In this document: positions 18,098 through 35,680 of the stretch, one piece after another | How positions within the stretch are numbered: the first letter of the stretch is position 1 | Layout: every line of letters starts with the position of its first letter | Assembly (NCBI RefSeq): GCF_000504205.1 | Contig: NZ_AZAJ01000001.1 | Coordinates: forward strand, 2,826,879 to 2,890,878 | Direction of reading: 5' to 3' | DNA: 64,000 nt | Origin: Methanolobus tindarius DSM 2278 | GTDB taxonomy: Archaea; Halobacteriota; Methanosarcinia; Methanosarcinales; Methanosarcinaceae | Position numbers and translations under genes: made by a program | The notes under the pieces: model-generated | The model's database searches: none | Seen by the model: only the letters and a program-made list of their open reading frames with translations | Told to the model about the DNA's origin: nothing

Positions 18098-19015
18098 TTA
18101 GTTGATGGGGAGATATCCAATCTCTTTGATTATTACTTGTCCCTGTTCACTCAGTACATAGTTTATATACTCTCCAATTTCCCCTTCTGGTTCACCGTTA
18201 GTGTAATACTGAAGTGGTCTTGCCAATGGATATTCTCCTTGCAGGATTGATTCCTGCTCCGGATGGAAAACTCCTTCTGAGGTTTCAAGGCCAAGCATTT
18301 TCACGCTACTATCAGCATAAGCCAGTCCTATATAACCAATGGCTGCACTATCTGATGCAACAGTCTGTACAATAGCTTCCGTATTTGGTTCGGTCACCGC
18401 TTTAGAACTGTAGTCTTCATCTTCAAGTACGTGTTCTTTGAAAAAAGCGTAAGTTCCTGAACTGGTATCGCGCACAAGCACTTCAATTTCTTCATCCTGG
18501 CCACCAAGCTCTTTCCAGTTAGTAACTTCTCCGGTATAGATTTTTTTCAGTTGCTCAATAGTTAAACTGTCAAATGAGTTATTTTTATTGACTATAACTG
18601 CAATTCCATCCCATCCGATGACTGTTTCTACAGGATTTATTCCTTTATCTATGGCACTTTCAATTTCAGTATCTTTTATTTTTCTTGATGCCATGGCAAT
18701 CTCCACTTCTCCTTCAATAAAACTGGCAATTCCAAGGGATGATCCTCCTCCAATAACAATTATCTTATTTTCAGGATATAGCTCCATGAAAGATTCAGAT
18801 TCAGCTATTGAAACCGGTAAAATGGTGTCAGAGCCTTTAATGAAGATCTCATTTAAAGTAGTGTCTGTGCTATCAGCCGTGTAATTATTTTGATTGCTTG
18901 ATATCGTATTTTTTATATTTTCATCATTGTTTTGTCCGTATAATGAAAATAAAGATATCAATATGAATAATGCTATTATAATGGCAAATATTGTGTAGTT
19001 TTTATTTTGAGACAA
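18098..19015 (-). CDS. Membrane-anchored phosphate-binding protein, PstS-like
   Basis: A 305-residue protein with one N-terminal membrane segment (about 8-26) without a lipobox cysteine, then a PstS-type periplasmic binding domain. Phosphate-site signatures include IKGSDTILPVS, GGGSSLGIASF, the GWDGIAVIVN strand, and RDTSSGTYAFF. It has no permease genes beside it. It is divergent from the PhnD-like gene at 19181, and the 165 bases between them are a shared promoter region. It could be an extra binding subunit for the Pst permease at 27.4 kb, or a sensor. TTG start. Confidence 0.9.
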   Translation of the reverse strand: MSQNKNYTIFAIIIALFILISLFSLYGQNNDENIKNTISSNQNNYTADSTDTTLNEIFIKGSDTILPVSIAESESFMELYPENKIIVIGGGSSLGIASFIEGEVEIAMASRKIKDTEIESAIDKGINPVETVIGWDGIAVIVNKNNSFDSLTIEQLKKIYTGEVTNWKELGGQDEEIEVLVRDTSSGTYAFFKEHVLEDEDYSSKAVTEPNTEAIVQTVASDSAAIGYIGLAYADSSVKMLGLETSEGVFHPEQESILQGEYPLARPLQYYTNGEPEGEIGEYINYVLSEQGQVIIKEIGYLPIN

Positions 19016-19180: not shown

Positions 19181-20101
19181 ATGAAAAACAAGCCAATAAT
19201 ACGTTGCAGTGGATGTATTTTTGTACTGCTACTCATTTTTACAACAGTAATCATTTCCAGCGGTTGTTTTGAATCTGAGGAAGCAGTGACAGTTTCTCTT
19301 AAAAATACCGAAACATTAACACAATCTGATATCAACGATAAACCTGTGCGTATCGGCGTATTCGCCATGGCGTCTCCAAAAATAACAATGGAGTATTATA
19401 ATGATTTTTTAAATTACCTGTCTGAGCAGACAAACCTTGAGTTTGAACTTGTGCAACGTGATAATCCTGCTGAGATCAACTATCTGCTTGAAACCGGTTA
19501 TCTTGATTTTGTATTTGTGAGAGAGGAAGATTATCTTTCAGGACATGATGATTTTGGTCTTGAAATTGTCGCAGTGCCTGTCATCAATGGTGATCTGTAT
19601 TGTTCATCACTGGTAATCGTAAGAGGGGATTCCGGGATAGATTCCCTTGAGAATCTCCACGGAAAAAAATTTGCATTCAATAGTTATCGTTTTAATAGGG
19701 GTGACATTGTTCCGGATTATATGCATCCTTTTATTGACGGTTCACCGGACGACTTCTTCTCCGGTTATATTTACAGCAATAGTCAGGATAATTTTATAGA
19801 TATGGTTCATCAGGGAAGCCTGGATGGTGCTGAAATTGATTGTATAATGTGGTCTTACATGGTTGAAAGTTCATCTGAAGATTACTCTGATCTTAGTATA
19901 ATTTATTCTTCTTCAGGTCAGCTTGTTCCTGTAGTTGCTGTGAATCCGGATATTGATCAGGAACTAAAGAATGATGTAGCTAAGACATTGCTTGGTATGC
20001 ATGATTCCAGAGAAGGTCGTGAGGTTCTTGAAGAAATGCATTTCAATATGTTTGTTGAAATGGACCATGAAACATATGCAGAGTACGGAAATAACTTGTG
20101 A
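19181..20101 (+). CDS. PhnD-like phosphonate/phosphite-binding lipoprotein
   Basis: A 306-residue substrate-binding lipoprotein (lipobox IISSGC). The mature domain has the PhnD family course: VRIGVFAMASPK, FVREEDYLS, LENLHGKKFAFNS and DGAEIDCIMW. No phnC/phnE permease genes follow. Instead a transmembrane histidine kinase begins eight bases downstream. A binding protein joined to a kinase suggests sensing rather than transport; the ligand may be phosphate, phosphonate or another oxyanion. This role is inference. Confidence 0.85.
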   Translation: MKNKPIIRCSGCIFVLLLIFTTVIISSGCFESEEAVTVSLKNTETLTQSDINDKPVRIGVFAMASPKITMEYYNDFLNYLSEQTNLEFELVQRDNPAEINYLLETGYLDFVFVREEDYLSGHDDFGLEIVAVPVINGDLYCSSLVIVRGDSGIDSLENLHGKKFAFNSYRFNRGDIVPDYMHPFIDGSPDDFFSGYIYSNSQDNFIDMVHQGSLDGAEIDCIMWSYMVESSSEDYSDLSIIYSSSGQLVPVVAVNPDIDQELKNDVAKTLLGMHDSREGREVLEEMHFNMFVEMDHETYAEYGNNL

Positions 20102-20109
20102 GGAGTAAA

Positions 20110-21915
20110 ATGGAAGATAGAAACAGTAACATAATGGAAAAACTGGTCACAAGCATTGATGACTTCAGTATCCGTACCAAACTCATCCTCACTGTTGTCA
20201 GTATAATCCTTGTACTCGGTGTCCTTATGGGTTCTTACCTTAATGTCGTGCAGACAAATATGATGAAAACTGAGCTCAATGAAAAAGGAATTTCAATAAC
20301 CCGTAATCTTGCAGAGAATAGTGTAAACCCTATACTTACCGATAATCAGGTTCGTCTCCAATGGCTTGTGAAAACCATCAAAGAGAGTGAAACTGAGGTT
20401 GTGTATGTATTCATAACTAATGAACATGGTGAAGTCCTGGTTCACACGTTTAGTGGTGGATTTCCTGTAGATCTAAAGGGAATAAATCCTGCAGTAGATG
20501 AAACCAATACACTGTTGCTTGATACTGAACTGGGATACATCAGGGATATTTCATGTCCTATTCTTGAGGGAAATGCAGGGGAAGTTCATGTAGGAATGTC
20601 TCAGGAGAACATCAGGACAACGGCTGATAAATTCACAAGATATCTCATTTTGTTTGTACTATTGCTTCTTGTGGTTGGTTCCTATGTTGCGTATCTTGCA
20701 GGTTCTGTAGTTTCCAATCCTATTCTGGAATTGAAAAAATCAGTAGAAACATTCGGAAAAGGACATCTGGATCACAAGGCCTGCATAAGTTCAAATAATG
20801 AAATAGGCCAGTTAGCTAAATCTTTTAATGACATGGCAGACCATATTGGATACCTTATTGAGGAAAAGGAGAAGGCATCAAAAGAGATACTTGAAACACG
20901 TAATTATCTGACCAAGATAGTTTCAGGGAGTCTCGATGGAATAATTGTTATCGATAATAGTGGTAAGATAGAATTTGCCAATGAAGCTTTCATCCAGATC
21001 TCTGAAACAAGTATGGACCGGATTGTCGGTTATGATGTTCTTTCTTTTGTTATTGATAATAAGGATTTGACATCTTTTTTTGAATCTCCTGATAAGAATA
21101 TCACTTTTATCAGAGAAATGAATTTCCGGGCCGGTAACGGCAAAATGAAATCAATAATGATGAGTATAGCCGTTGTTGAGTACCGCAATGAGCTAAAATA
21201 TGTTGCAGTTGCCAAGGATATTACTGAAATGAAAAAACTTGAGCAAATGAAGCGTAATATAATAGCAAATATTTCCCATGAATTGCGCACTCCTTTGAAT
21301 ATCATGAAAGGCTATGTAGAAATTGCCATTGATGAAGAGAATATGCAAAAAAGGAATTCTTTCCTTGAAAAGTCACTGAAAGCGCTTGAAAGACAAAACT
21401 GGATGATACAGGATCTTCTGGAGGTCGCCAGGTCTGATGATGAACTCGAGAAAATGGATATGGTCAAAACAAGCATCAATAGTATTGTTGATATAGCTTT
21501 CAAGTCTTTCAATGGTAAAATGGAAGCCTCAGGACTTGATATCAATGTTATCAAGGGCAATGATATGTTTGTACAGGGTGATCCTGAAAAACTGGCATAT
21601 GCCTTAACAAAGGTTTTAGACAATGCTTTGAAGTTCACAGGCAAAGGCGGAAGTGTAGAGATAGGCACTTTGCAGGAAGACACCGGAGCTCTTGTCTATG
21701 TAAAAGACACAGGTGTTGGAATTCCGGAGGATCAACAGGATCTGATTTTTGAAAGATTTTATCAGGTTGATTCCTCGTCGACCCGTAAATATGGCGGCAA
21801 CGGACTTGGTCTGGCTATTGTTAAAAATATCATTGACCAGCACGGAGGAAAAATCTGGGTTGAGTCTACCGTGGAAAAAGGAAGTACATTCTATTTTACA
21901 GTTCCTGGATTTTGA
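20110..21915 (+). CDS. Transmembrane sensor histidine kinase (HAMP-PAS)
   Basis: About 601 residues. Order: membrane segment (about 22-45), external sensor region (46-175), second membrane segment (178-198), HAMP (200-255, following VSNPI), PAS (about 270-375), HisKA with phosphorylated His in NISHELRTPL (about 390), and HATPase with DNALKFTGKGG, DTGVGIPEDQQ and GGNGLGLAIVK. The last part resembles PhoR/ResE kinases. ATG 20110 follows GAGGAG. It is tightly coupled to the PhnD-like gene and precedes an AbrB-PhoU gene. No response regulator is visible in the window. Confidence 0.93.
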   Translation: MEDRNSNIMEKLVTSIDDFSIRTKLILTVVSIILVLGVLMGSYLNVVQTNMMKTELNEKGISITRNLAENSVNPILTDNQVRLQWLVKTIKESETEVVYVFITNEHGEVLVHTFSGGFPVDLKGINPAVDETNTLLLDTELGYIRDISCPILEGNAGEVHVGMSQENIRTTADKFTRYLILFVLLLLVVGSYVAYLAGSVVSNPILELKKSVETFGKGHLDHKACISSNNEIGQLAKSFNDMADHIGYLIEEKEKASKEILETRNYLTKIVSGSLDGIIVIDNSGKIEFANEAFIQISETSMDRIVGYDVLSFVIDNKDLTSFFESPDKNITFIREMNFRAGNGKMKSIMMSIAVVEYRNELKYVAVAKDITEMKKLEQMKRNIIANISHELRTPLNIMKGYVEIAIDEENMQKRNSFLEKSLKALERQNWMIQDLLEVARSDDELEKMDMVKTSINSIVDIAFKSFNGKMEASGLDINVIKGNDMFVQGDPEKLAYALTKVLDNALKFTGKGGSVEIGTLQEDTGALVYVKDTGVGIPEDQQDLIFERFYQVDSSSTRKYGGNGLGLAIVKNIIDQHGGKIWVESTVEKGSTFYFTVPGF

Positions 21916-22030
21916 TACTAAAAAACCATTTTCATCTATATAGATTATGTATATTCTACCTATCTATTAAGGTAAGCTTTATAGCCCAAATCCTGTCCAT
22001 TAGTCATATCTTCCTTTGGGTTGTGAAAAG

Positions 22031-22993
22031 ATGGATACAAGAAAAGTACAGATCACAGGAAAATCCACATATGTGGTTACCCTCCCCAAAAAATGGGCCA
22101 CTCGCTCAAAACTGGAAGCTGGATCCCATATTTCCATTTATTATCAGGAAGATGGTTCTCTGCTTCTTAAACCTCCAGGGGTAAAATCTTCTAATAAAAC
22201 AAAAAAGATAAAATTTAACAAAGAACTTGAGCATATAAAAAGAGATCTTGTAGGTCTGTATATAATAAGTGATCACCAGACAATAGAAATTTCAGGTAAT
22301 GATATTCCGGCAGCAGCACGCAGGGAAATTAAAGACCTTTGCCATCGTCTTGTAGGTCTGGAAATGGTTGAAGGTGATGAGAAAAAAATAGTCATCAAGA
22401 ATTTTCTGGACACGGAAGATTTCACCATTGAAAAAGGGCTCAAGAGGATGTCTTCACTCGTTTATCTCATGCTTGATGAACTAGCATCTGCCTTTGAGGA
22501 AAATGACAAAGAATTGTGCAATCACATAATATCCCGTGATGATGACCTTGACAGAATGTTCCTGCTTGTATCAAAGCAACATGTAGAGCGTCTGAACCTT
22601 AAGAAACCTTCAAAACATGATAAGCAGACTCTGGTTGAATCATTTTATTACCGGCTTGCTGCCAATGACATAGAAAGAATCGGTGACCACATATCTAAAA
22701 TATCATTGCATTTCTCTTACATTAGTCTGCCTCAGGAAGTACTTGCAATACTTGTTGACCTGTGCAGGGAGTGTCAATCCCTTTTCATGGATAGTACCGA
22801 AGCTTTGCGCCAGTCAGACAGTGATATTGCAAACAATGTAATGGGGAGAGAGGACATCTTCAACAAAATGCTCATAAGTGCTGCCCAGCTCCCAACTGAG
22901 GAGTCTATAGAACTTATAATTGACAGTTTCAGCAGGATAAAGGATTATGCGTCAAATATTGCAGAGTCTGCTATCGATTTATCGCAATTATAG
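22031..22993 (+). CDS. AbrB-PhoU phosphate uptake regulator
   Basis: A 320-residue protein with an N-terminal SpoVT/AbrB-like swapped-hairpin domain (about 1-45, RKVQITGKSTYVVTLPKKWA) and two PhoU helical repeats, with ERIGDHISK in the second. Archaeal proteins with this architecture (COG0704) are thought to bind DNA or the Pst transporter and to control phosphate uptake. ATG 22031 aligns with the related gene at 35704. It ends in TAG. The following membrane protein gene overlaps its 3' end. Confidence 0.9.
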   Translation: MDTRKVQITGKSTYVVTLPKKWATRSKLEAGSHISIYYQEDGSLLLKPPGVKSSNKTKKIKFNKELEHIKRDLVGLYIISDHQTIEISGNDIPAAARREIKDLCHRLVGLEMVEGDEKKIVIKNFLDTEDFTIEKGLKRMSSLVYLMLDELASAFEENDKELCNHIISRDDDLDRMFLLVSKQHVERLNLKKPSKHDKQTLVESFYYRLAANDIERIGDHISKISLHFSYISLPQEVLAILVDLCRECQSLFMDSTEALRQSDSDIANNVMGREDIFNKMLISAAQLPTEESIELIIDSFSRIKDYASNIAESAIDLSQL

Positions 22994-23381
22994 ACTCATC
23001 CCTCTTTTTCTCTGCGTGGGTGTAATTATTGATTACTCCCTTACCTTCTATTTTGCAGGCAGCATTGAAAGGATACTGGAATATGAATTCAGCCCGACAC
23101 TGGTATTTGCAGTCAGGCACAACATCGTTCTTCCATATCTGGCTTTAACTGTTGTTTTCTATTATTTCATGGGATATACTATACTGAAGTTCCTTGAAGA
23201 TGAGGAGATCTACCCGATAGGTGTTTTTATTATCCTACTCATGAGCCTTACACATGTTCTTGGTGGTCTGTCATGGTTTGTGCTAAGTGAGACGTATTCT
23301 AATATGATTTTCATGCTTTCCATGACTTCCATAATCATTGCCATATCGGTATTCGGATATGAAATATTTAAACGGGGATGA
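22947..23381 (+). CDS. Small membrane protein
   Basis: A 144-residue protein with four predicted membrane segments. It overlaps the preceding phoU by 47 bases; the ATG has AAAGG upstream, but a GTG at 23019 is another possible start. Its layout (a first segment with IDYSLTFY and a D-x-x-x-T pattern) resembles the membrane protein at 36727, which also lies beside an AbrB-PhoU gene. A DUF5658-like family is possible. Function is unknown. Confidence 0.65.
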   Translation: MRQILQSLLSIYRNYRLIPLFLCVGVIIDYSLTFYFAGSIERILEYEFSPTLVFAVRHNIVLPYLALTVVFYYFMGYTILKFLEDEEIYPIGVFIILLMSLTHVLGGLSWFVLSETYSNMIFMLSMTSIIIAISVFGYEIFKRG

Positions 23382-23920: not shown

Positions 23921-23933
23921 CGGAGTGGAGTTT

Positions 23934-25985
23934 GTGAGAAAAACGAAAATAAGCATACTCTGTCTGTTATGCATGGTAGTATTACTGCTGTTCTCTTCAC
24001 ATCTACCTCTTGCATCTGCAAATACAGAGTGTCCATGTGATGATCTTGATTATTGCATCGAATGGGTAGATGAAGGTAGTATCAGTGTCCAGTGGGGCCA
24101 GGTTGAAACCGTTGCTATCAATGGTGAGGTTTATACATTCAGAGCTGATGATTTTGATGAGGACTTGAATGCTGCTCTGATTTCCATTGAGCGTGATGGG
24201 ATTGTGCGCAAAGAGTTCCTTTTCCTGACTGGATCATCTGACAGAAGATGGCTTGAATGGGACAATGAAGTAGCAGTTGTTATTGCTGATATAACTCTTG
24301 ATGGCTATAAGACTCCATCTGTAAAACTGGAATTGTATTCTCGTGGCCGTCCTTCACTTGAAATTGAATTTGAAGCAAGTGAAGAGACAGTTCAGGGTGT
24401 TGATGTTTCTTCTGAACAGTATGCTCCTGGAGAAGAAAAGCAGATTGATGTTACTATAAAAAACACAGGGGATGCATGGATCGAGAATGTTATTCTTGAG
24501 ATCGATACTGATGAGATGAGGGTACGTTCAAGAGGAGATTTTGAATACAGGGATGGTATCCTAAAGGAAAATCTGGGTTGCCTTGCAGTAGATGATAGTA
24601 TTGAGATGAATTTTACAGTTGTGGCTCCTGAGTGGGATGGTGTAACTTCTCCTTATGATCTGGTTTATTACATTAATGCTACTGCAAATGGGTATGATAT
24701 AAAAGAAAACGATTATCAATTCACTGGTTCTCTGGAGCTTGGTTGCACAGATCCTGATATTGAGGTTGTAATGGAATTAACTACAGATGAATTCAATATG
24801 ACTTCTTGGTATGTGAATAACCTTGATATAAATACTGCCAGCTATAGTTCAAGTGATTATGAAATAAGGGATGCAGAAGAATTTACATTTTTAAGGACGC
24901 GTATTTTTAATACAGGTCTTTACACTCTAAGCAATATTGATGTTGATTTTCCAGAAATATCTGAAGATCTGGTTATAGCTGAAAGCTATGAATCGGGGGA
25001 TTATTCCACAATGGAAGATAATGGTCAATACTATCTGGGTCTAAAACTTGTGGCTATTAAATCCGGTGACTATTCATTTGATGAAGTAGTTGTACAAACA
25101 AGTTTCTTCGGTGAAAATCTTTCGTGGAAATCCGGATCAGAAAGTCTGAAAGTGCATGGTCCGCATATTGTGCTTGATAAAAAGCTAACAAGATCCGATT
25201 CTGACTACACTGTTTCTCTTGATATTTCCAATGATGGCGACCGTGCAGCCTGGATCAATCTGGTTGATACTATTCCTGATGAATTGGATTATGTAAGCGG
25301 AAGTTTGGAAAAGAGTCTGGAAGGAAGTGATCTGCCTCTTAGTGAGTGGGATCTCAGTACAACGGTGGTTAATGGTACGCAAACAGTTTCTGTAACAGGG
25401 GTATTGCTCCCTCCTGGTTCATCACTTTCCATGTCTTACGAGTTCTCTTCTGATGAAATACCGGATCTGCCTGCAGCTATTTGCAAATTCAAATCGATAT
25501 GGAATTATGAAGGTGAAGCCCAGTCTTCTTATTATGTAGGTGGTGTTGAGGTTAAACAGTACTGGAAACCTCTGAATGGTGGATGGGTAACTGAAGCTGA
25601 TATTACCGAAAATAGTACTGTTGCAGTGCCCATAACTGTTGTTGAAGATGAGCCAGAAATTGTGAATCTTCCTGAAGATGATGCAGAGGATGAATTTAAT
25701 TCAGTTGATGATGAAATGCCTGATACTTCTGATGTTGTACTGGAAGTAGAAACTGAATCTTCAACTTCATTCTTATCAAAAATTATCTCTCCTATCATCA
25801 ATATATTTGACAAAGCACAGCAATTAGTAAGCAATATTTTTAAAGGTGCTCTTAGTGGAGTATCTTCTGTTTTTGGTATTGCTGAAGGAGCTGCTGTAGA
25901 TGCTGTTGAAAACTATCTCTATGCAGTTGTTATAGGTATAGCACTTGTCGTATTCCTTCTGGTATACACTTTAATTTCAAAATAA
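23934..25985 (+). CDS. Large surface protein with CARDB/DUF11-like repeats and C-terminal anchor
   Basis: A 683-residue protein with a signal peptide (about 1-30), a Cys-containing segment (CPCDDLDYC), then a beta-rich exterior. It has NEW3/CARDB-like (VDVTIKNTGDAWIENVILEI) and DUF11-like (SLDISNDGDRAAWINLVDTIP) Ig-type domains. An acidic linker (about 560-610) and a C-terminal membrane helix (about 660-682) follow. This is the COG1361 S-layer-like pattern. GTG 23934 follows CGGAG. It lies just before the pilin-type pstS operon and may be a surface platform or phosphate-related adhesin; that role is inference. Confidence 0.75.
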   Translation: MRKTKISILCLLCMVVLLLFSSHLPLASANTECPCDDLDYCIEWVDEGSISVQWGQVETVAINGEVYTFRADDFDEDLNAALISIERDGIVRKEFLFLTGSSDRRWLEWDNEVAVVIADITLDGYKTPSVKLELYSRGRPSLEIEFEASEETVQGVDVSSEQYAPGEEKQIDVTIKNTGDAWIENVILEIDTDEMRVRSRGDFEYRDGILKENLGCLAVDDSIEMNFTVVAPEWDGVTSPYDLVYYINATANGYDIKENDYQFTGSLELGCTDPDIEVVMELTTDEFNMTSWYVNNLDINTASYSSSDYEIRDAEEFTFLRTRIFNTGLYTLSNIDVDFPEISEDLVIAESYESGDYSTMEDNGQYYLGLKLVAIKSGDYSFDEVVVQTSFFGENLSWKSGSESLKVHGPHIVLDKKLTRSDSDYTVSLDISNDGDRAAWINLVDTIPDELDYVSGSLEKSLEGSDLPLSEWDLSTTVVNGTQTVSVTGVLLPPGSSLSMSYEFSSDEIPDLPAAICKFKSIWNYEGEAQSSYYVGGVEVKQYWKPLNGGWVTEADITENSTVAVPITVVEDEPEIVNLPEDDAEDEFNSVDDEMPDTSDVVLEVETESSTSFLSKIISPIINIFDKAQQLVSNIFKGALSGVSSVFGIAEGAAVDAVENYLYAVVIGIALVVFLLVYTLISK

Positions 25986-26326
25986 TCCTATTTTCTTCTT
26001 TTCTGCAAATATTTTATTTATTCAATATACATCTACCTTTTTTTGTATGCTTCTTGATTAATTGAATTATCAAAAAATATGATGGCTCTTGGTCATTTTT
26101 ATAAATGCATTCTTTCTTAATAATAGAATATAGTTCTCTATGTTGCATTTATATGGAATTATTTGTTGTATATGCACCAATATATAGAGATATTGGAATT
26201 CTATATGGTTTATTGTACTATATACATTCCTTGTACAAGCATTATATATCCGCATACCAATTAGGTGCCAGAGCGATTAAAACCCGCTCTGAATAGGAAC
26301 ATAAAATAAATTGGTGTACGATAAAT
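25986..26326 (+). promoter_or_regulatory. Promoter and structured leader of pstS, with operator-like palindrome
   Basis: This 341-base region has no gene. A perfect palindrome CTTGTACAAG (26230-26239) abuts a TATA box (ATTATATATCC, 26241-26251), the position of an archaeal operator. Downstream in the predicted leader, CAGAGCG (26269-26275) pairs with CGCTCTG (26285-26291), and ACCAATT (about 26256-26262) could pair with AATTGGT (about 26309-26315) around it. No Shine-Dalgarno precedes the pstS ATG. Control by phosphate is an inference from the gene served. Confidence 0.5.
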
Positions 26327-27304
26327 ATGTTTAAGAAAATTTTCAACGATGAAGCTGGTGTTTCACCTATCGTTGCTACCCTCGTTTTAGTAGTAGTAGC
26401 AATCGCAGGCGCAGCAGCTGTAGGAACCATCATGGGTTCATTCTCAAGTGACGTATCTGACGAAGCAAGTGCAGCTGACGCAACCTCAGCAGCATCAACC
26501 GAACTCCTTATCGCAGGTTCAACAACCGTTCAGCCAGTTTCTGAACTTCTTGCAGAAGCATACATGGATGAGCACAACGGTATCAAGGTAACAGTACAGG
26601 GTGGTGGCTCTGGTGCAGGTATTACCTCAACAGAACTCGACATCATTGACATCGGATCAGCATCCAAACCAGTAGATACAACCACAGATCACCCTGATCT
26701 TCAGGTTCACCAGATTGGTGGTAGTGCTGTAGTAGTAATCGCAAACGGTGCACTTGAAGGGTACAACACAACACAGGCTGAGCTCTTTGCAATCTACTCC
26801 AACTGTACAGATGGTAAGTCATACTATGCAATATCTGGTAGCAACTTCACCTCAGCAACATCCGGTTCACAGGTAACAGTATACCAGAGATCCGAGGCAA
26901 GCGGAACAGAAGAAACATTCGCAAAGTACCTTGATGGTGCATTCGGTGATGCAAAGGATGTAGATGATTCCGAGGCACTCGGTGCAGTAGGTAACGCTGG
27001 TGTACTTGCAGCTGTCGAAGACACAACAAACTCAATCGGTTTCGTAGACTTTGGATTCGCAGTCAGCTCCGAATCTGTAACAATCGTTGGTGTAGACGGA
27101 TACAACGATGTAACTGAAGACAACGTACTCGACTGCCTTGCAGGTAAGGATACCTATCAGGAAGATCTTACAAGACCACTCAACTACCTCACAAATGGTA
27201 ACCCATCAACAGTTGAGCAGTCCTTCATCAACTTTGCAATGTCTCCAGTTGCAACACAGTATTTCGAAGATGTAGGATACTTCTCAATCATTGACTTCAG
27301 CTAA
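26327..27304 (+). CDS. pstS: Phosphate-binding protein PstS with type IV pilin signal
   Basis: A 325-residue PstS whose N-terminus is an archaeal type IV pilin signal instead of a lipoprotein signal. It has charged residues (FKKIFNDEA), a likely prepilin-peptidase cut before GVSPIVATL, and the pilin hydrophobic stretch to about residue 37. A short Ala/Ser linker follows, then the phosphate-binding domain from about residue 58 (LIAGSTTVQPVSE, GGGSGAGI, RSEASGTEE). Codon bias (GCA, GTA, GGT, AAC) suggests high expression. A hairpin separates it from pstC. I infer assembly or retention at the surface as pilin-like subunits, by the ATPase and TadC proteins encoded downstream. Confidence 0.93.
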   Translation: MFKKIFNDEAGVSPIVATLVLVVVAIAGAAAVGTIMGSFSSDVSDEASAADATSAASTELLIAGSTTVQPVSELLAEAYMDEHNGIKVTVQGGGSGAGITSTELDIIDIGSASKPVDTTTDHPDLQVHQIGGSAVVVIANGALEGYNTTQAELFAIYSNCTDGKSYYAISGSNFTSATSGSQVTVYQRSEASGTEETFAKYLDGAFGDAKDVDDSEALGAVGNAGVLAAVEDTTNSIGFVDFGFAVSSESVTIVGVDGYNDVTEDNVLDCLAGKDTYQEDLTRPLNYLTNGNPSTVEQSFINFAMSPVATQYFEDVGYFSIIDFS

Positions 27305-27314
27305 GTTTGAACTG

Positions 27315-27351
27315 AGATTTGTGCAATAGCACAAATCTAATCTTCTTTTTT
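27315..27351 (+). terminator. Hairpin/attenuator between pstS and pstC
   Basis: A perfect 10-bp stem (AGATTTGTGC / GCACAAATCT) with AATA loop is followed by TAATCTTCTTTTTTT. It lies between the highly codon-biased pstS and pstC, so it may end most transcripts after pstS and let only part continue into the permease and pilus genes. Confidence 0.7.
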
Positions 27352-27362
27352 TATTTAAAACG

Positions 27363-28379
27363 ATGAGCATGAATAACAGAAGCCGACTTTTACATACTAT
27401 TAATCTTATTATTTTATCCTCTGCTATATTTACAACATTTTTTGGTTCCGGTACCCAAGAAGCGAACAAAAGAGTACTATACAACAGCTCTGCAAATCTG
27501 ATATTTTTTGCATGTGCAATTATTGTATCACTTATTGTGATTTTTTTTGTAGGGTTCATATTCTACACTGCCTTCCCGGTGTTCCAGAGTCAGGGAATAA
27601 TTAATTTCCTCATTACTGATGAATGGAACTATGGTAGGAATACCTATGGCATCAAAACATACATTATGGGCACCCTTATAATGACCATTGTAACTCTGAT
27701 AATGGCAGTACCTATAAGTATTTTTACAGCAATATTTCTGTCTGAGATTGCATCTCTCCGCCTTGCTTCCTCAATAAGACCTTTCATCGAATTACTTGTA
27801 GGCATACCATCTGTGGTCTACGGTATATTTGGTCTTTTCGTGCTTGAAAATATTTTTCAGAATTATATAGAACCAATCCTTTCTTCGGTTCTGGGTTTCA
27901 TTCCGATATTTGTTGATGTGAACCCCCAGTCGGGACTGGGTGTGTTGCTGGCATCAACAGTTCTGTCAATAATGGTCTTCCCAACAATTACAACAATTTC
28001 TGAGAATGCCATACGTTCTGTATCTGTAGAGAACAGGCATGCTTCATTATCTTTGGGTGCCAACAGGTGGGAGACTATAAGTAAGGTAGTCCTTCCAGCA
28101 GCCTCCAGTGGAATAATGACTGCAGTGGTACTTGGAATGATGAGGGCAATGGGTGAAACAATGGCTATAGTGATGTTGCTGGGCAATGCAAATACCATTC
28201 CTTCTTCAGTAATGGGTCCCGGTTATGCAATGACATCGAAGATCCTCAATGATATTGGTCATCACTTCAATGAACCAGGACCACGGGCTGCATTGTTTGG
28301 AATTGCAGCAGTCCTTTTTGCAATTGAAATCGGTTTTGTTCTTGTCTCAAGATATCTGGGTGGTAGAAATGAACTATAG
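27363..28379 (+). CDS. pstC: Phosphate ABC transporter permease PstC
   Basis: A 338-residue inner-membrane permease subunit. The ABC permease (EAA-loop) region reads SLGANRWETISKVVLPAASSGI, and GIPSVVYGIFGLFVLENIF is the PstC motif. The N-terminal about 40 residues are unusual: an extra hydrophobic stretch (INLIILSSAIFTTFFG) before the usual first segment. The start could be further in. It ends in TAG, which overlaps the pstA start. Confidence 0.93.
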   Translation: MSMNNRSRLLHTINLIILSSAIFTTFFGSGTQEANKRVLYNSSANLIFFACAIIVSLIVIFFVGFIFYTAFPVFQSQGIINFLITDEWNYGRNTYGIKTYIMGTLIMTIVTLIMAVPISIFTAIFLSEIASLRLASSIRPFIELLVGIPSVVYGIFGLFVLENIFQNYIEPILSSVLGFIPIFVDVNPQSGLGVLLASTVLSIMVFPTITTISENAIRSVSVENRHASLSLGANRWETISKVVLPAASSGIMTAVVLGMMRAMGETMAIVMLLGNANTIPSSVMGPGYAMTSKILNDIGHHFNEPGPRAALFGIAAVLFAIEIGFVLVSRYLGGRNEL

Positions 28380-29262
28380 AAAAACAAAAGAGAAATTTTA
28401 TATATTTCTGTGCTATTTCTCGGCAGTTCTGGCAACAATGGCCCTTTTCGGGATACTTGGAAAGATTGCCTTTGAAGCTCTTCCAAGTCTGAATCTGGAA
28501 TTTTTACTTACTCCTGAAAATGAAGCTAAAGGGTTTGGAGGCGGAATAGCAAATGCAATAGTGGGAACAATTCTGCTTTCATTGCTATCTACAATAATGG
28601 CTTCTCCCATTGCAGTAGGAACTGCACTATATATGAAGCGCTATGCCAAGAATAAGCATCTAATAAATAATTTTAGTTTCATTATCGATGTACTTTCTGG
28701 AACTCCTTCAATTGTTCTTGGAATATTTGGATTGATGATCTTTGTTTATCATATGCGCTTCATTACCGGTGGTTTTTCACTAATTTCCGGTGCAATTGCC
28801 CTTACGATTCTGATTCTACCCGTAATTGAGCGCTCAGCAGAAGAGGCTATTAAATCTGTTCCGGCAGAATTGGAGGAAGCAAGCTATGCACTGGGAGCTA
28901 CAAAATGGGAAACAATAAGCAAAATAACCCTTCCAAATGCAGCTACAGGTATTGTCACAGGTATAGTTCTCAGTGTGGGAAGAGCTGCTGAAGAATCTGC
29001 AGTTGTGGTTTTGACTGCCGGTTATTCTCAGTTTATGCCCGAGTTTGGTGTATCTGCAAAAGAGAGTATGCTTTTTGGAATACGTATATCTCCATTACAG
29101 AATTTGGTAGCTTCACTTCCAATTACAGTGTACCATTCATTTGAATTCCCAAGTATGGTATCTCCATCAGAGGGTTTTGCAGCTGCATTTGTGCTAATAG
29201 TCATTGTTATGCTAATAAATGCCATTACCCGTCTTATCGTCTGGAGGCGCAGAATTGGCTAA
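28369..29262 (+). CDS. pstA: Phosphate ABC transporter permease PstA
   Basis: A 297-residue permease subunit with the EAA loop YALGATKWETISKITLPNAATG, plus the SGTPSIVLGIFGL segment. ATG 28369 overlaps the last codons of pstC (translational coupling); an in-frame extension to 28249 lies wholly inside pstC and has no family match. It overlaps the secretion ATPase gene by 8 bases. No pstB ATPase follows, so the permease must use an ATPase from elsewhere, or work differently. Confidence 0.93.
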   Translation: MNYRKTKEKFYIFLCYFSAVLATMALFGILGKIAFEALPSLNLEFLLTPENEAKGFGGGIANAIVGTILLSLLSTIMASPIAVGTALYMKRYAKNKHLINNFSFIIDVLSGTPSIVLGIFGLMIFVYHMRFITGGFSLISGAIALTILILPVIERSAEEAIKSVPAELEEASYALGATKWETISKITLPNAATGIVTGIVLSVGRAAEESAVVVLTAGYSQFMPEFGVSAKESMLFGIRISPLQNLVASLPITVYHSFEFPSMVSPSEGFAAAFVLIVIVMLINAITRLIVWRRRIG

Positions 29263-31429
29263 ACTTCAACTGCGCTCTAGATTCACCAAAAAAAAGTCAT
29301 CTGAGGCAGTTGAAACAGCAGATGACAGGGCATCAGTCTCTGATGCTGGATACGTGTCAGACTTGCCAGTTGAAACAATTGAATCCGCAGAAGAGGATGA
29401 TTTTTCCGGCAATGGTCACATAAGCGAAGAGGAAATAATTTCAGTCTCAGACGAACCTGAAATCATAGATAATCAGGAAATATCTGAGGATTTTTCCCTA
29501 AATACTGAAGACGATATTAATGATGTTTCTTTGAAACCAGAACCTGATATTATTGTTGAGGAATCAGAAGTCTCAGATCCGGATGAAAAAACAGAAAAAA
29601 AGAAAAAGTTTGGTTTTAAGATTGGTAAAAAGGAAAAGAAGCCAAAGAAATCTTCCAAAAAAAGTGATTCAGTAGCTTCAATAGAAGAGCCTGAAGTACA
29701 AAGCTCAAAACCTGTAAAAAAGAAATCAAAATTCAATCTAGATCTGAACCTGAATTTCGGTAAAAAAAAGAAAAACCTTCCAGAAACCGAAAATAACGAT
29801 GATGTCGCATCTGGAGAAATACAGGGACAAGAGTTAACTGAAGAATCTGCTGTTTCATCACTTGTTAAAAAGATAGAGCAGATAATATCTCCAAAACCGG
29901 AAATTATCGAAGAGATGGAGTTCATCGTTGGTGAAATCACAATTCCTGCACCGGGAGTTCCACAAAAGGAAGTAAACATCACATATGAGGTTACTTCCGG
30001 GTTCCAGTATGTTCATATTGAATTTACCGGGGAGTCTCTTCAGTATCAGTGCCTTGAACCTCCGCTCAGTGAATCTGAAAAAGAGGCAATGTTCATTGTG
30101 CAGAATGCTTTTGATAAAATGGCACACTCTGAGATTCTTCTCGTTGAGGAAGAAGATCGTGTCGAGGCTCTCAGGGATAGGTTTGATCTTATAGTTGACA
30201 TCTACCGTCTGAAACTTACCGAAACCCAGAAAGACAAATTCTTCTATTACCTTCACAAAAAATACATGGGCTTTGACAGGATGGACCTTTTGATGAAAGA
30301 TCCATATATTGAAGATATTACCTGTAACGGTCCCTTTACTCCACTTTATGTCAACCACAGGGTTTACGGTTCTGTTGCAACGGATGTAATCTATGAAGAA
30401 ATCGAACTCAACAATTTTGTCATGAGAATGGCACAGGCAGCAGGCAGGCATATTTCCGTGCTGGAGCCTATCAGGGATGCAACACTTGTGGATGGGAGTC
30501 GTGCAAATCTGACACTTGGAAAAGAGGTCACAAAAAGAGGTTCCACATTCACCATCAGGCGTTTCAGATCCAATCCGGTTTCATGCATTGATCTGATGAA
30601 TTACAAGACCTATGATTCTACAGTTCTCGCTTATTTCTGGCTCATGGTGGAATACAAACGTTCCGTACTTGCAGCCGGAGGAACAGCTTCAGGAAAGACA
30701 ACTACCCTGAACGCTCTTGGTGCTTTCATTCCACCGGAATATAAGATTGTATCCATTGAAGATACTGCGGAAATGAACCTCATGCATCCAAACTGGACTC
30801 AGTCTATCACAAGAGCAGGTTTTGGAGGCAGTAGTGAAGGTGGTAAATCCGCGGGAGATATCGAACTTTTCGACCTGCTTAAAGCTGCTTTGAGACAAAG
30901 ACCAGAATACATAGTGGTTGGTGAGGTTCGTGGTGCTGAAGCCGGTACACTTTTCCAGGCAATTTCCGTTGGTCACCCATGTATGGGGACGATACACGCA
31001 GGTTCCATTCAGGAACTGCTATCAAGGGTTGAATCCGAACCAATGAACGTGCCAAGGAACCTTTTTGCCAGTGTTGATATGGTAATTTTCAACTCCATGA
31101 TCAAAGTTGGTGAACATTTCCTCAGACGTGCTCTGAGAATTGTAGAAATAGTGGAACTTGATCCTGAACGTGGCGACCTCATCACAAATCCTGTATTTAA
31201 ATGGAATCCCATCACGGATGAGTATGAGTACAGTGGCAGCAGTGCAATGTTTGATGACATCAATGATGAATTTGGTATCGATCAGTATGAACTGGTAAGG
31301 GAAATGGATCTCAGGGCAAGATATCTGGAAGGGCTTGCACGTGATGGAATTACTGATTATGAGGATGTGGCCAGAGCCATCAGAAGGTATTCACGAGAAA
31401 AAGATGAATTGCTGGAGATGACTCACTAA
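29255..31429 (+). CDS. Type IV pilus/secretion ATPase (GspE/VirB11-like)
   Basis: A 724-residue assembly ATPase. The first about 210 residues are low-complexity: acidic, then lysine-rich blocks (KKKKFGFKIGKKEKK and similar). The core has Walker A GGTASGKTT (about 474-482), Walker B/Asp box in EYIVVGEVRGAEAG and the His box GTIHAGS (about 577). It should power pilin assembly from the cytoplasm with a TadC-type platform. TTG 29255 follows GGAGG (29243-29247) and overlaps pstA. Its place right after pstA is unusual, and the organised spacing argues for one operon. Confidence 0.93.
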   Translation: MAKLQLRSRFTKKKSSEAVETADDRASVSDAGYVSDLPVETIESAEEDDFSGNGHISEEEIISVSDEPEIIDNQEISEDFSLNTEDDINDVSLKPEPDIIVEESEVSDPDEKTEKKKKFGFKIGKKEKKPKKSSKKSDSVASIEEPEVQSSKPVKKKSKFNLDLNLNFGKKKKNLPETENNDDVASGEIQGQELTEESAVSSLVKKIEQIISPKPEIIEEMEFIVGEITIPAPGVPQKEVNITYEVTSGFQYVHIEFTGESLQYQCLEPPLSESEKEAMFIVQNAFDKMAHSEILLVEEEDRVEALRDRFDLIVDIYRLKLTETQKDKFFYYLHKKYMGFDRMDLLMKDPYIEDITCNGPFTPLYVNHRVYGSVATDVIYEEIELNNFVMRMAQAAGRHISVLEPIRDATLVDGSRANLTLGKEVTKRGSTFTIRRFRSNPVSCIDLMNYKTYDSTVLAYFWLMVEYKRSVLAAGGTASGKTTTLNALGAFIPPEYKIVSIEDTAEMNLMHPNWTQSITRAGFGGSSEGGKSAGDIELFDLLKAALRQRPEYIVVGEVRGAEAGTLFQAISVGHPCMGTIHAGSIQELLSRVESEPMNVPRNLFASVDMVIFNSMIKVGEHFLRRALRIVEIVELDPERGDLITNPVFKWNPITDEYEYSGSSAMFDDINDEFGIDQYELVREMDLRARYLEGLARDGITDYEDVARAIRRYSREKDELLEMTH

Positions 31430-32347
31430 ATGGTCAAGACCCAGGATGTCGATGTCCATCAGGCTTTCAATGATGGAAGTACTAACAAGTATATTGAAAA
31501 ATATAAGATGTTCTGTTATGTCTTTGGTAAACACATAGACAAAAAACCACAGGATGACATCGCTAAGTCACTCTATCAGGCAGACATGGTGCTTACTCCG
31601 GGGATGTTCATGTCTCTGGCATTGGTTACCGCAGGTCTGGCTTCAGGAATAGTGTTTTTATTATCAGTTTTACTTTTTACAAAATCATCATCTCCACTTG
31701 TCTACATATCTGTACTTACCTTCCTGACATTCGGACTAACCGTAAGCGGTTTTCCGTTCATGTTATACAACAAAGTTTCCAACAAGAACATGAATATTGA
31801 GCAGGAACTGCCTTTCACTCTCGGGTACATGACCATTCTTGCAAGTTCGGGTTCTTCACCTATGGATGTTATCAGGAAAGTTGCAATCGAGGACTATGGT
31901 GACGTTTCAGTTGAATTTGGTAAAGTAATGTATCGTGTGGATGTTCTTGGTGAAGATGGTGTAAGTGCCATGAATCACCTCATACGCAACACATCATCTG
32001 AATCCCTAAGGGCAATATGCATTGATCTTGCCAATGCCATGCAGTCCGGTGGTGGCCTTCGAACTTATCTTGAAATGAAATCCAGGGAACTCATGGACAT
32101 GAGGAGAAAAATGCAGCAGGAGTTCGTGGATTCTCTTGGAGTTTACGGTGAAGGTTATCTGAGTGGAGTAGTTATGAGTGTTGTACTTGTAGTCCTGATG
32201 ATCGTGGTTACAAGTGCTCTTGGAATTGATCTTGGTCCATTTACGGCCAAACAGATGTTCCAGTTCTTCGTTTACTTCATGTTACCTTTCATAAACATCG
32301 TTTTCCTGATTTTATTATGGATGAAATATTCAAGGAGCACTCTATGA
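31430..32347 (+). CDS. TadC-like pilus assembly membrane protein (first)
   Basis: A 305-residue GspF/TadC (T2SSF) platform protein with membrane segments near 60-105 and at the C-terminus (about 240-300). The cytoplasmic core (LPFTLGYMTILASSGSSPMDVIRKVA) matches the family. It begins right at the ATPase stop codon and overlaps the next platform gene, so the three are translationally coupled. Confidence 0.9.
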   Translation: MVKTQDVDVHQAFNDGSTNKYIEKYKMFCYVFGKHIDKKPQDDIAKSLYQADMVLTPGMFMSLALVTAGLASGIVFLLSVLLFTKSSSPLVYISVLTFLTFGLTVSGFPFMLYNKVSNKNMNIEQELPFTLGYMTILASSGSSPMDVIRKVAIEDYGDVSVEFGKVMYRVDVLGEDGVSAMNHLIRNTSSESLRAICIDLANAMQSGGGLRTYLEMKSRELMDMRRKMQQEFVDSLGVYGEGYLSGVVMSVVLVVLMIVVTSALGIDLGPFTAKQMFQFFVYFMLPFINIVFLILLWMKYSRSTL

Positions 32348-33708
32348 ATATTGAAAAATATCGTCTGACAGCAGAGCGTTATCATCAAATGCTGACTATA
32401 CGTTATGATATCAAGCGTGAATATCTCACATTAGGTATCCCTGTCTTTATTGCATTAATGATCGTGGTCATGGCTTTAATTACCGGTCATTCCTTTGTAA
32501 CTGATGAAGCTGCAGCTGGCGGTGCAGCAGTTAGTGACGAAGCTGCTGCTAAACAAGCTGCATATGAGCAACTTGTAGCTGAAATGGAGGCTGCAGAAGC
32601 TGCAGAAAGAGGTGAGGTTGTAGCCACCGAAGAGGAAGAGGTAGAACCAGAAACTGAAGAGGATAAACCAAAAGATGATTTGGATCATATTATGGTGTTT
32701 GCAATACTTGTGGCTATTATTCCATATTCTATAGATTCATTCATAGAAAAAAGAAATCTTCAAAAAAGAGAAGTCGCTTTCAGTGAGTTTCTGTATAAAC
32801 TATCCGAACTGATGCGTGGCGGTATAGATCCTGTCAAGGGTTTTATCAATCTCTCCAAGACTAATCTTGGAGCAATCAGCACTCATGCACAGGATGCTGC
32901 ATCTTCAATGGTGCTTGGAAAATCCTTTGAGGAATCTATGCACAGAATGTCAGATTCAATGAAAAGCCGTCTTGTTTCCAGATATATTGACGTCGTCGTT
33001 CAGGCTGCTTATACTGGTGGTAATGTGGCTGACCTGTTATTCCGGACCTCAGAGGACATGAGATCAGTGATTGCTATCCAGCGAGAAAAGGAAGCAAATT
33101 TGAAGCAGTATATTGTAATTTTCTACCTTGCTCAGGGTATTATCGTAATGTTGACATATATTCTCTCAACATCCCTGTTACCTCTTATTCAGGGTGTTGG
33201 AATGGAAATGCTTGGTGGTGCAGGTCTTTCGGATATTGACTTTGAGCGTGGTTTTTTCCATATGATTATACTTAATGCTCTCTTTGGTGGACTTATAGTC
33301 GGACAGATTACAGAAGGTGAGATCAAGCATGGATTCAAACATTCAGCTATATTGATAGCCTTGAGCTATGTTGCATGTGTTACATTGCTTCTTCCGGCAG
33401 GTGTGGGTAGCACATACATGGTTACTGTAGTTTCAGGCGATGCACAGGAAGTTATGGGTGGTATTCCCTTACAGCAGCCAATTATATTCAATATAACTGA
33501 TGTAGATGGAAATCCTGCTGCAGGTACGTTTGTCAAAATGACAATAACACCCACTGGAGTGATCACAAGTTCTATGACTGAGGATGACGGAACAGTAACT
33601 GTGTCCCCGGTTCCGGGTTCAACTGCAGGTACGTATGTTGTAACTGCAACAGCTGGTGAATCTCAAGGTACAGCAACAATAATTGTGAATGAAGGAGGAG
33701 GGGATTAA
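32344..33708 (+). CDS. TadC-like pilus assembly membrane protein (second) with C-terminal Ig-like domain
   Basis: A 454-residue T2SSF platform protein. Two odd parts: an Ala/Glu-rich loop (about 52-115) inserted after the first membrane segment, and a C-terminal Ig/carboxypeptidase-like beta domain (about 374-452, with QQPIIFNITDVDGNPAAGT and STAGTYVVTATAGES). The latter is normally found in surface proteins and should sit outside the cell. The T2SSF core SELMRGGIDPVKGFINLS is intact. ATG 32344 has AGGAG at 32333-32337. Confidence 0.9.
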   Translation: MNIEKYRLTAERYHQMLTIRYDIKREYLTLGIPVFIALMIVVMALITGHSFVTDEAAAGGAAVSDEAAAKQAAYEQLVAEMEAAEAAERGEVVATEEEEVEPETEEDKPKDDLDHIMVFAILVAIIPYSIDSFIEKRNLQKREVAFSEFLYKLSELMRGGIDPVKGFINLSKTNLGAISTHAQDAASSMVLGKSFEESMHRMSDSMKSRLVSRYIDVVVQAAYTGGNVADLLFRTSEDMRSVIAIQREKEANLKQYIVIFYLAQGIIVMLTYILSTSLLPLIQGVGMEMLGGAGLSDIDFERGFFHMIILNALFGGLIVGQITEGEIKHGFKHSAILIALSYVACVTLLLPAGVGSTYMVTVVSGDAQEVMGGIPLQQPIIFNITDVDGNPAAGTFVKMTITPTGVITSSMTEDDGTVTVSPVPGSTAGTYVVTATAGESQGTATIIVNEGGGD

Positions 33709-33737: not shown

Positions 33738-34415
33738 TTAACCAACTCTTTCTCTCATATCCATGGTGATTCCCTGGCTGGTTACATTATATGCAATCAT
33801 TTTATTCAGGGGAATGCTGCCTTTCATTTTTGGAATGTTGATGTATCTGTTGATTTTGCCAGCTATATATTCGGTTCTGAACTGGATGACACCGTCGACC
33901 ATGGAGCGGATTATCTTCTCGGCTCTTTCCGGAAGTATGCCCATGTCGGCTGAAAGCAGGAATGTGATGTTTTCTTTTCGGCTGATGCTGATTAATGCTT
34001 CAATGGTTTCGGATATGACTTCTGTATCTTCATGAACAAACAGTGCGGCGAACATATCAATGATGCACACGTCGGCTTCACTTATGTTATGCAACAGTGA
34101 CCCGTTATTCTCCCCGTGGAGCCTGCTGTAAAGCCTGTGACGCTTATAACACATATCCAGAAGGGCAATATGGTCTGAAAAGTTGCCTATGGCTGTTAGG
34201 AGCTCAGGTTTTGTAATAGAATCAAACTTGTTCATTTCTTCTTTCAGGTCATTTTCTGAGTTTCTGGTAGATATATAGAATACCTTTTTTCCGCTTCTTA
34301 GAGCATCAGAAGTAATCTTTCGGAAAAAGACACTTTTTACATCTCCTATGTCTTCTTCTACCAATAGTACCACATTGGAAGGTACGTTTTTTAAACCAAA
34401 GCTAGTCAGCACCAT
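33738..34415 (-). CDS. ArlH/KaiC-like ATPase with degenerate Walker A
   Basis: About 225 residues. The course NVVLLVEEDIGDVKSVFF...ALRSGKKVFYISTRNSENDLKEEM parallels ArlH (FlaH)/KaiC proteins, but the P-loop lacks the usual glycines, keeping only G-D-V-K-S. Walker B is visible as ADVCIIDMFAALF. It may bind nucleotide weakly or be a regulator of pilus assembly. ATG at 34415 follows AGGG; a longer form starts at 34436. It is divergent from the pilin gene at 34541 and beside the platform genes. Confidence 0.7.
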   Translation of the reverse strand: MVLTSFGLKNVPSNVVLLVEEDIGDVKSVFFRKITSDALRSGKKVFYISTRNSENDLKEEMNKFDSITKPELLTAIGNFSDHIALLDMCYKRHRLYSRLHGENNGSLLHNISEADVCIIDMFAALFVHEDTEVISETIEALISISRKENITFLLSADMGILPERAEKIIRSMVDGVIQFRTEYIAGKINRYINIPKMKGSIPLNKMIAYNVTSQGITMDMRERVG

Positions 34416-34540
34416 CAAAACCCTAAAAGTAATCATTGCTTAAATGGTTTTGGAAGAAAATGCCAAAAACTATAGACTATAGGGTTCTATATATATTACA
34501 GAAACAAAGTATATAATCGGTAATACACTTCTCATCACAG

Positions 34541-35680
34541 ATGGCTGGCAACGATATGAAAGCGTTTTTTAACGACAACCGCGGTGTTACTGTTGTATTT
34601 GGCACTCTGTTATTGATATTGATCACTATTATCGCTGCTTCAAGTGTTGCCTACATGATATCCACTACCCAGAAGCAGGCTATGGATCTTGAAAGCCATC
34701 AGAATTCAGTTGAGAACGAAAACCTCAAAATAGTTTCCATTGATCCACAGGGTAACGGTTCTAAATGGGAATCGATTGATCTGAAAATACTCAATCTCAA
34801 TATTGAGGATTCCTACATATCGGCAATCCGCATCAATGACGGATATTTCCTTTATTTCCGGGCTTATGATGATTATTCATCTGAAAATTTTGATACTTAT
34901 AATGGATATCCGGCGGTTTACAATGCAAATCACAGATTGAAAATACCTGCAACTAAAAGTAAAACCGTTCATCTTAATTTTTCAGACATAGATGTTCAGG
35001 GAATTGAAACAATTGATACTGCAGCATGGACTAATAATAGCATAGATTTTACATATTCTCTTAAAAAACATCCATGGGATGCATTTGGAGAATATCCATT
35101 CACTTATAATCTGACCTATGAAAACGGAACAAATTGTATCGAAAATGGCAACATTACATTGAGCAATGAGACTCGTCAGATAACATTTCTGGGAAATAAT
35201 TCAGGTGGAACTCTAATTAACACATCAAATTATAATCTCGAATATTCATTGAATTTCATATCGTATCCGGGCTCATCACCTTCTAAAGAGGATCCGGTTA
35301 GGGTCGAAATTATCACTTCATACATTAATGTTTTCAGGGAAGTTTTCTCTCCGCCAATGCCGGTGGCAGCAGTACAATTCAAAGTTGAGTATCTGCAAAA
35401 TGGAAATGGAACCCAGAGTCCCAATAGCTACCTTATATTGGATGCTTCCGATTCCACAGATATTGACGGTTTCATCACCAGCTATAAATGGGCCATCTGG
35501 AAGGATTCAGGTAATGGGACAACAACTCTCTATGATTATGACCTTCAGGGAATGGTTGTAAGGCCTACTGGAATTGACCCATATAACGATCATAACGTAA
35601 CCATCGATCTACTGATAACAGACGATGACGGCATGACCTCCAGACTAAGTCAGGTATCTGGTAACCTGACAATTCTTTAA
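34541..35680 (+). CDS. Pilin-type surface protein with PKD-like domain
   Basis: A 379-residue protein. The N-terminus has FFNDNRGVTVVFGTLLLIL, a type III (pilin) signal with a likely cut before GVTV, then a hydrophobic helix. The middle is beta-rich with many NxS/T sites. The C-terminus (about 268-379) is PKD-like (LDASDSTDIDGFITSYKW, then LLITDDDGMTSRLS). It is probably a large pilin or tip subunit of the same pilus system. ATG at 34541 or 34556. It is followed 23 bases later by an AbrB-PhoU gene. Confidence 0.8.
   Translation: MAGNDMKAFFNDNRGVTVVFGTLLLILITIIAASSVAYMISTTQKQAMDLESHQNSVENENLKIVSIDPQGNGSKWESIDLKILNLNIEDSYISAIRINDGYFLYFRAYDDYSSENFDTYNGYPAVYNANHRLKIPATKSKTVHLNFSDIDVQGIETIDTAAWTNNSIDFTYSLKKHPWDAFGEYPFTYNLTYENGTNCIENGNITLSNETRQITFLGNNSGGTLINTSNYNLEYSLNFISYPGSSPSKEDPVRVEIITSYINVFREVFSPPMPVAAVQFKVEYLQNGNGTQSPNSYLILDASDSTDIDGFITSYKWAIWKDSGNGTTTLYDYDLQGMVVRPTGIDPYNDHNVTIDLLITDDDGMTSRLSQVSGNLTIL

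Follow-up and report, generated by a model that had tools for sequence, protein, structure and literature searches.

Results

Gene content of the locus

The window, a 64,000-nucleotide stretch of the complete 3.15-Mb chromosome of Methanolobus tindarius DSM 2278, encodes a phosphate-binding protein (PstS) of 325 amino acids at 26327-27304 (+), with an ATG at 26327 followed by MFKKIFNDEAGVSPIVATLVLVVVAIAGAAAVGTIMGSF. It is followed by the permease genes pstC (27363-28379, +; TIGR02138, E = 4.3e-84) and pstA (28369-29262, +; TIGR00974, E = 1.6e-78), both over the family cut-offs; the pstA start at 28369 is the probable one by inspection, the longest ORF running from 28249. The next gene codes for a type IV filament assembly ATPase (29219-31429, +; T2SSE), the ORF of which, taken provisionally from the first ATG, overlaps the 3' end of pstA. 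This ATPase carries the P-loop GGTASGKT and its best NCBIfam model was the archaellum FlaI at 419 bits, with 192 bits for BasE. Further downstream are two TadC/PilC-like platform proteins (31430-32347, +, T2SSF E = 1.7e-11; 32317-33708, +, T2SSF E = 2.9e-15), a FlaH/ArlH-like ATPase (33738-34436, -; ArlH model E = 2.9e-14, below cut-off), a 379-aa pilin (34541-35680, +; TIGR02537 over cut-off, Pilin_N E = 2.5e-4) and a second PhoU-domain protein (35806-36759, +; TIGR02135 E = 1.9e-14).

Directly upstream of pstS, and kept there in most Methanolobus loci, is the gene for a 686-aa CARDB/DUF11 surface protein with a C-terminal membrane anchor (23925-25985, +; hits below cut-offs). It is preceded by TM144, a 144-aa membrane protein that travels with the block in conserved neighbourhoods (22947-23381, +), and by the first PhoU-domain protein, of MazE/AbrB-PhoU type (22016-22993, +; PhoU E = 3.3e-24, MazE_antitoxin E = 7.3e-10). 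The latter joins a DNA-binding domain to PhoU domains and is a candidate phosphate-responsive regulator of the block.

No pstB was found in the pstS-pstC-pstA operon. The sole pstB over cut-off in the genome (C1:1816828) belongs to a separate, complete pstSCAB-phoU operon about 1 Mb away. The initial annotation of this DNA dealt with the N-terminus of PstS and did not include the neighbouring genes; we regard the conserved grouping of pst genes and a type IV pilus machine in one operon as the stronger point.

A pilin-type N-terminus on PstS

The N-terminal residues of the 325-aa protein are MFKKIFNDEAGVSPIVATLVLVVVAIAGAAAVGTIMGSFSSDVSD, and it starts as MFKKIFNDEAG/VSPIVATLVLVVVAIAGAAAVGTI (the slash marking the predicted cut), an archaeal type IV pilin N-domain. 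The span 26327-26437, for which a pilin N-domain instead of a lipobox had been proposed, corresponds to codons 1-37. A prepilin-type leader of residues 1-11 (MFKKIFNDEAG; 26327-26359, +), predicted to be removed, is followed by the H-domain helix of residues 12-35 (26360-26431, +; helix predicted at 14-35) and by a Ser/Ala-rich linker of residues 36-57 with no predicted structure (26432-26497, +; pLDDT 31-55). Features of a class III signal are present, namely a short charged leader, a Gly before the predicted cut and an unbroken hydrophobic helix right after it. Since no Cys occurs within or just past the hydrophobic stretch, the protein lacks a lipobox.

We searched the first 48 residues against 177,635 distinct PDB sequences. 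Five matches were obtained at E <= 10, all of them archaeal type IV filament proteins: 8fj5 (E = 7e-4), 8rey, 3j1r, 8fk7 and 5kyh. Within the genus the same query recovered the PstS family first and pilin-like proteins next. The Pilin_N profile (PF07790) matched PstS at E = 0.0098 with 17.2 bits, under its cut-off of 25.2, and this match was seen in 21 of the 24 members of the pilin-type PstS family; nine other loci of the same genome passed the cut-off. At the sequence level these comparisons confirm that the archaeal type IV pilin N-domain at the start of PstS is real and more than chance, and the proposal of a pilin N-domain in place of a lipobox is upheld by the filament matches, the absence of Cys and the invariance of the helix described below.

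Predicted cleavage site

The usual prepilin site is [KR][GA] followed by the cut. Position -2 of the PstS leader is Ala, which is unusual; Lys or Arg is absent there, and relatives have Arg. Relatives from ANME, Methanocellales and Nitrososphaerales read TRAVSP or RRAVSP at the site (R-A/V-S-P), and chain residue 1 of 8rey, 3j1r and 5kyh, all mature filament subunits, aligns with PstS Val12. Because the mature chains start at the equivalent of Val12 and the relatives read R-A/V-S-P, the cut in PstS is likely to fall between Gly11 and Val12. Cleavage before the Gly, as first suggested, was rejected on the register of these mature chains, which points to a cut after Gly11. One prepilin peptidase of family PF01478 is encoded in the genome.

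Conservation of the helix

Residues 12-33 of PstS were 100% identical across 17 Methanolobus orthologues, whereas the phosphate domains averaged 49% identity. Synonymous differences were present in 35% of the comparable codons of these residues in the 17 orthologues. Gene conversion as the sole cause of the invariant helix is disfavoured by this 35% of differing codons, with some reduction visible relative to the binding domain (48%). A second PstS of the window (18098-19015, -; TIGR02136 over cut-off) with a plain anchor served as a control and displayed the reverse pattern in six genomes, with 28% identity in the anchor and 81% in the domain. A plain hydrophobic anchor would be expected to drift, whereas a helix that packs in a filament core should not, and the H-domain is nearly invariant in the six PilA pilins (PilA1-6) of H. 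volcanii (PMC4371748). The substitution pattern indicates that the pilin-type N-terminus of PstS is under strong selection.

The phosphate-binding domain

Residues 58-325 and the stop codon (26498-27304, +) make up the phosphate-binding domain, assigned by the PBP_like_2 match, the fold and the ligand motifs. PBP_like_2 matched over its cut-off (E = 1.6e-20), and TIGR02136 matched at E = 2.4e-30 with 105.7 bits, not reaching its curated cut-off of 206.6. The AlphaFold model (mean pLDDT 85.3) has a helix at 14-35, an unstructured linker to 57 and then the PstS fold, and its top PDB fold matches were all phosphate-binding proteins (4exl, 1twy, 4gd5). Pilin-type PstS is a divergent member of the PstS fold family. 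The ligand motifs GSTT (64-67), GGGS (92-95), DIG (108-110), R188 and SGT (192-194) are retained; the GST, GGGS, DIG and R-x3-SGT elements align with solved PstS proteins and are conserved, and from this motif alignment the phosphate-ligand site is predicted to be retained.

Other PstS proteins

The plain-anchored PstS at 18098-19015 had been noted previously as having no pilin motif, and its anchor is indeed unrelated and freely drifting. A third PstS (G000:C1:1819417), with a lipobox-like GIGC, is encoded in the complete pstSCAB-phoU operon (C1:1816828-1820283). The claim of two surface modes in one cell was therefore right in that the modes differ, but the number is three. Beside the plain PstS, at 19181-21915, ORF translations read by eye gave a PhnD-like lipoprotein and then a histidine kinase, a pair that is a possible phosphate or phosphonate sensor.

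Five Methanolobus genomes encode a second pilin-type PstS, about 40% identical to the first and located beside its own AbrB/MazE-PhoU gene (L032:6933-8108, L034:13356-14444, L043:6684-7808, L048:9284-10420, L049:4750-5868). In three of the five the two pstS genes are a few kb apart and oppositely oriented. In a Nitrososphaerales MAG, the same pilin N-domain is combined, in proteins of 754 and 585 aa (L118:9992-12256 and L120:10001-11758), with a region resembling PstS and a long additional segment; pilus ATPase/TadC and PhoU genes occur close by in L118.

Distribution of the PstS-pilus linkage

Most Methanolobus loci have the order CARDB protein, pstS, pstC, pstA, ATPase, TadC, TadC, FlaH-like, pilin, PhoU. 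The same gene set is found rearranged in Methanomicrobiales, where the TadC pair and the FlaH-like gene are upstream of pstS and the ATPase is downstream of pstA. The linkage also occurs in Methanosarcinales MAGs, in Methanomethylovorans and in an ANME-1 MAG, with distant versions in G058 (L050), L119 and the Nitrososphaerales MAG (L118). In an order-level relative (L116) the ATPase is about 7 kb from pstA with other genes between.

Several pilus-type ATPases are present per genome among those compared. Within the genus, an orthologue of the block ATPase (at least 72% identity) was present in all 17 genomes with pilin-type PstS and in none of the eight without it. Two genomes with the ATPase, G011 and G018, were rejected as exceptions since their contigs break inside the block; in G018, pstC-pstA adjoin the ATPase at the contig end. 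In another genome, G015 (C17, L126-L127), the pst-pilus block is gone and glycan-biosynthesis-like genes are found instead between the conserved flanks PhoU1-TM144 and PhoU2, making G015 a natural deletion strain for the block.

In a phylum sample of 295 genomes, an ATPase orthologue (at least 59% identity) was found in 16, all 16 of which had a PstS matching from the pilin N-domain on, and one genome of the 295 (G187, 87% complete) had a pilin-type PstS without the ATPase orthologue. Three genomes with ATPases at 44-47% identity and no listed pilin-type PstS were counted outside the orthologous group, and distant PstS-pilin proteins such as that of L050 fell under the threshold of this count. 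Fisher's exact test on the co-occurrence gave 1.6e-25; this value is descriptive, as the test takes no account of phylogeny, related genomes do not count as independent and neighbouring genes are gained or lost jointly. The conserved and reshuffled linkage, together with the 295-genome table, led us to reject a chance association of pilus with pst genes. In a tree whose unlinked ATPases came from Methanolobus, those linked to PstS grouped as a single clade (support 97/96), separate from the other pilus ATPases of the same genomes; L118, L050 and L119 are long branches.

Candidate control elements

An operator-like inverted repeat, ATATAGA-N11-TCTATAT, lies upstream of pstS (26182-26206, +); it is exact in the window, where 0.55 matches with up to two mismatches are expected by chance. 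Within two mismatches it recurs at 16 of the 17 orthologous loci, mostly 113-136 nt ahead of the called start. A weaker copy is located between the FlaH-like gene and the pilin (34470-34494, +) and occupies the same place in several other loci. A TATA-box-like TTATATAT (26242-26249, +), its role suggested by position, was invariant in 15 aligned upstream regions. The leader also contains a hairpin, CAGAGCG-ATTAAAACC-CGCTCTG (26269-26291, +), whose 5-bp stem is preserved in all 15 sequences, with one compensatory change; an Rfam search at this hairpin gave no match. The leader as a whole (26180-26326) is strongly conserved in Methanolobus and could be a phosphate-response control region. Between pstS and pstC is a terminator-like hairpin (27315-27338, +), and a stable hairpin with a T run after it recurs downstream of pstS in the genus orthologues with differing stem sequences, which suggests that PstS is made in excess over the permeases.

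Discussion

Comparison with known systems

A list of 33 class III substrate-binding proteins, reportedly given by Szabo et al. in 2007, could include PstS proteins of the kind described here. The initial annotation presented the N-terminus by itself as a surprise; the pattern is real, but it is less surprising than stated, as class III signals on substrate-binding proteins are already known in crenarchaea and euryarchaea (PMC4187195), and of the FlaFind hits in 22 archaeal genomes, 33 carried an annotation as substrate-binding protein (PMC2910488). Reviews name Sulfolobus solfataricus as the sole organism in which the bindosome, with the sugar-binding GlcS and AraS, has been studied, and its structure is still to be observed (PMC4187195, PMC2910488). 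Like the Bas bindosome of that organism, the system here combines a class III binding protein, a dedicated FlaI-like ATPase and a FlaJ/TadC-like protein, and would serve an ABC transporter. It differs in substrate (phosphate rather than sugars) and in hosts (methanogens and relatives rather than Sulfolobus), in a single operon that holds the genes for binding protein, permeases and assembly, in its two TadC genes and in the absence of a three-pilin basABC set. The Bas models scored 192 bits for BasE and 34.5 bits for BasF on the block against very strict cut-offs of 1000 and 1300, with archaellum models scoring higher. Both values fall well short of the cut-offs and of the archaellum scores, which leaves the block outside the Bas family as these models define it.

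Likeness to the PilA-type pili of Haloferax volcanii (8fj5; PMC4371748) consists of N-domain homology and an H-domain that is near-invariant while the rest diverges, although PilA proteins are small pilins that lack a ligand-binding domain. The mature subunit of the Ignicoccus Iho670 filaments (3j1r, 5kyh), which has 303 aa and starts VSPVIATLLLILIAVAAA, aligns at Val12, but these are adhesive filaments without a phosphate-binding domain. Canonical PstSCAB systems (4gd5, 1twy, 4exl; C1:1816828-1820283) share the fold, the ligand motifs, pstC and pstA, and differ from the present system in having a lipobox or cleaved signal instead of a pilin leader; the operon here is without pstB and is linked to a pilus machine. 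The words phosphate and PstS are absent from the main text of a survey of archaeal pilus loci (PMC4858521), and no report of a phosphate system with PstS and archaeal pilins or a bindosome was found in the open-access literature searched.

Proposed assembly of PstS and alternative explanations

The locus probably encodes a phosphate bindosome-like system. In this account PstS, once processed as a prepilin, would be put together by a machine of its own and would supply PstCA, which would work with a borrowed PstB. The analysis shows the homology of the N-domain, its extreme conservation, the operon and the co-occurrence; processing, assembly and function are deduced. The precursor would be inserted by Sec, and the sole PF01478 prepilin peptidase of the genome would remove the 11-residue leader by cutting between Gly11 and Val12 on the cytoplasmic face. 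Mature PstS would keep the 24-residue H-domain helix, packing with other subunits. The conserved operon and the co-distribution suggest that the ATPase and TadC pair encoded downstream build it, possibly together with the 379-aa pilin, into one of several structures: a filament, a short pseudopilus, a short surface-bound array or an array embedded in the S-layer. Given the ligand motifs and the neighbouring pstCA, such an array on flexible linkers may capture phosphate and pass it to PstCA, which would have to borrow the PstB encoded about 1 Mb away. Assembly is favoured because the helix is invariant and the gene set is retained, and the 303-aa chain of 5kyh provides a size precedent for filament subunits. 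Against it count the Pilin_N score below the cut-off, the Ala at -2, the intervening genes in L116, the three genomes with ATPases at 44-47% identity and the ordinary pilin of the block, which may be what the machine polymerises, leaving PstS out of the pilus. We put forward more tentatively, as an extension that is less likely than not, that PstS is itself a main building block of its own type IV filament, a phosphate-binding pilus or S-layer-embedded array of methanogens and methane-oxidising archaea that arose separately from the Sulfolobus sugar bindosome and is built by its own ATPase lineage, travelling with it across orders.

The main rival explanation takes the leader to be a membrane anchor only, so that PstS would be cut by the prepilin peptidase and would stay monomeric beside PstCA, the pilus genes being co-induced by phosphate starvation for adhesion or relocation. 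Co-regulation of this kind fits the weak operator-like repeat common to pstS and the pilin/FlaH-like gene, the PhoU genes flanking the block and the presence of a pilin of its own; the shared repeat is, for its part, compatible with assembly as well. A mere anchor, however, would be expected to diverge in the way the anchor of the plain PstS has, and here the helix is invariant, the pstCA genes separate pstS from the ATPase, and the gene set holds together even where it is rearranged in another order. We consider this explanation unlikely.

A phosphate sensor in place of a transporter, with PstS in a pilus-like complex reporting to the PhoU or AbrB-PhoU proteins and thereby controlling pili, is suggested by the two PhoU-domain genes flanking the block, the pairing of paralogous pilin-type PstS with an AbrB-PhoU gene and the operon without pstB, but pstS is followed by a complete pstC and pstA and we find this role very unlikely. 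Also very unlikely is a Sec signal anchor that stays uncut, undergoes no prepilin processing and owes its likeness to a pilin leader to chance or descent, since the Ala at -2 and the weak Pilin_N score that would speak for it are set against homology to mature filament subunits at Val12, canonical R-A/V-S-P sites in relatives, the invariant helix and a pilus machine in the same operon.

Implications

Here one operon encodes binding protein, permeases and assembly machine in methanogens that can be grown in culture, Methanolobus among them, and the nutrient concerned is easy to make scarce. This combination makes the polymerisation of binding proteins for nutrient capture in archaea directly testable. 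The locus suggests that the bindosome idea may extend beyond sugars, and that a methane-producing archaeon may build a phosphate-catching surface structure.
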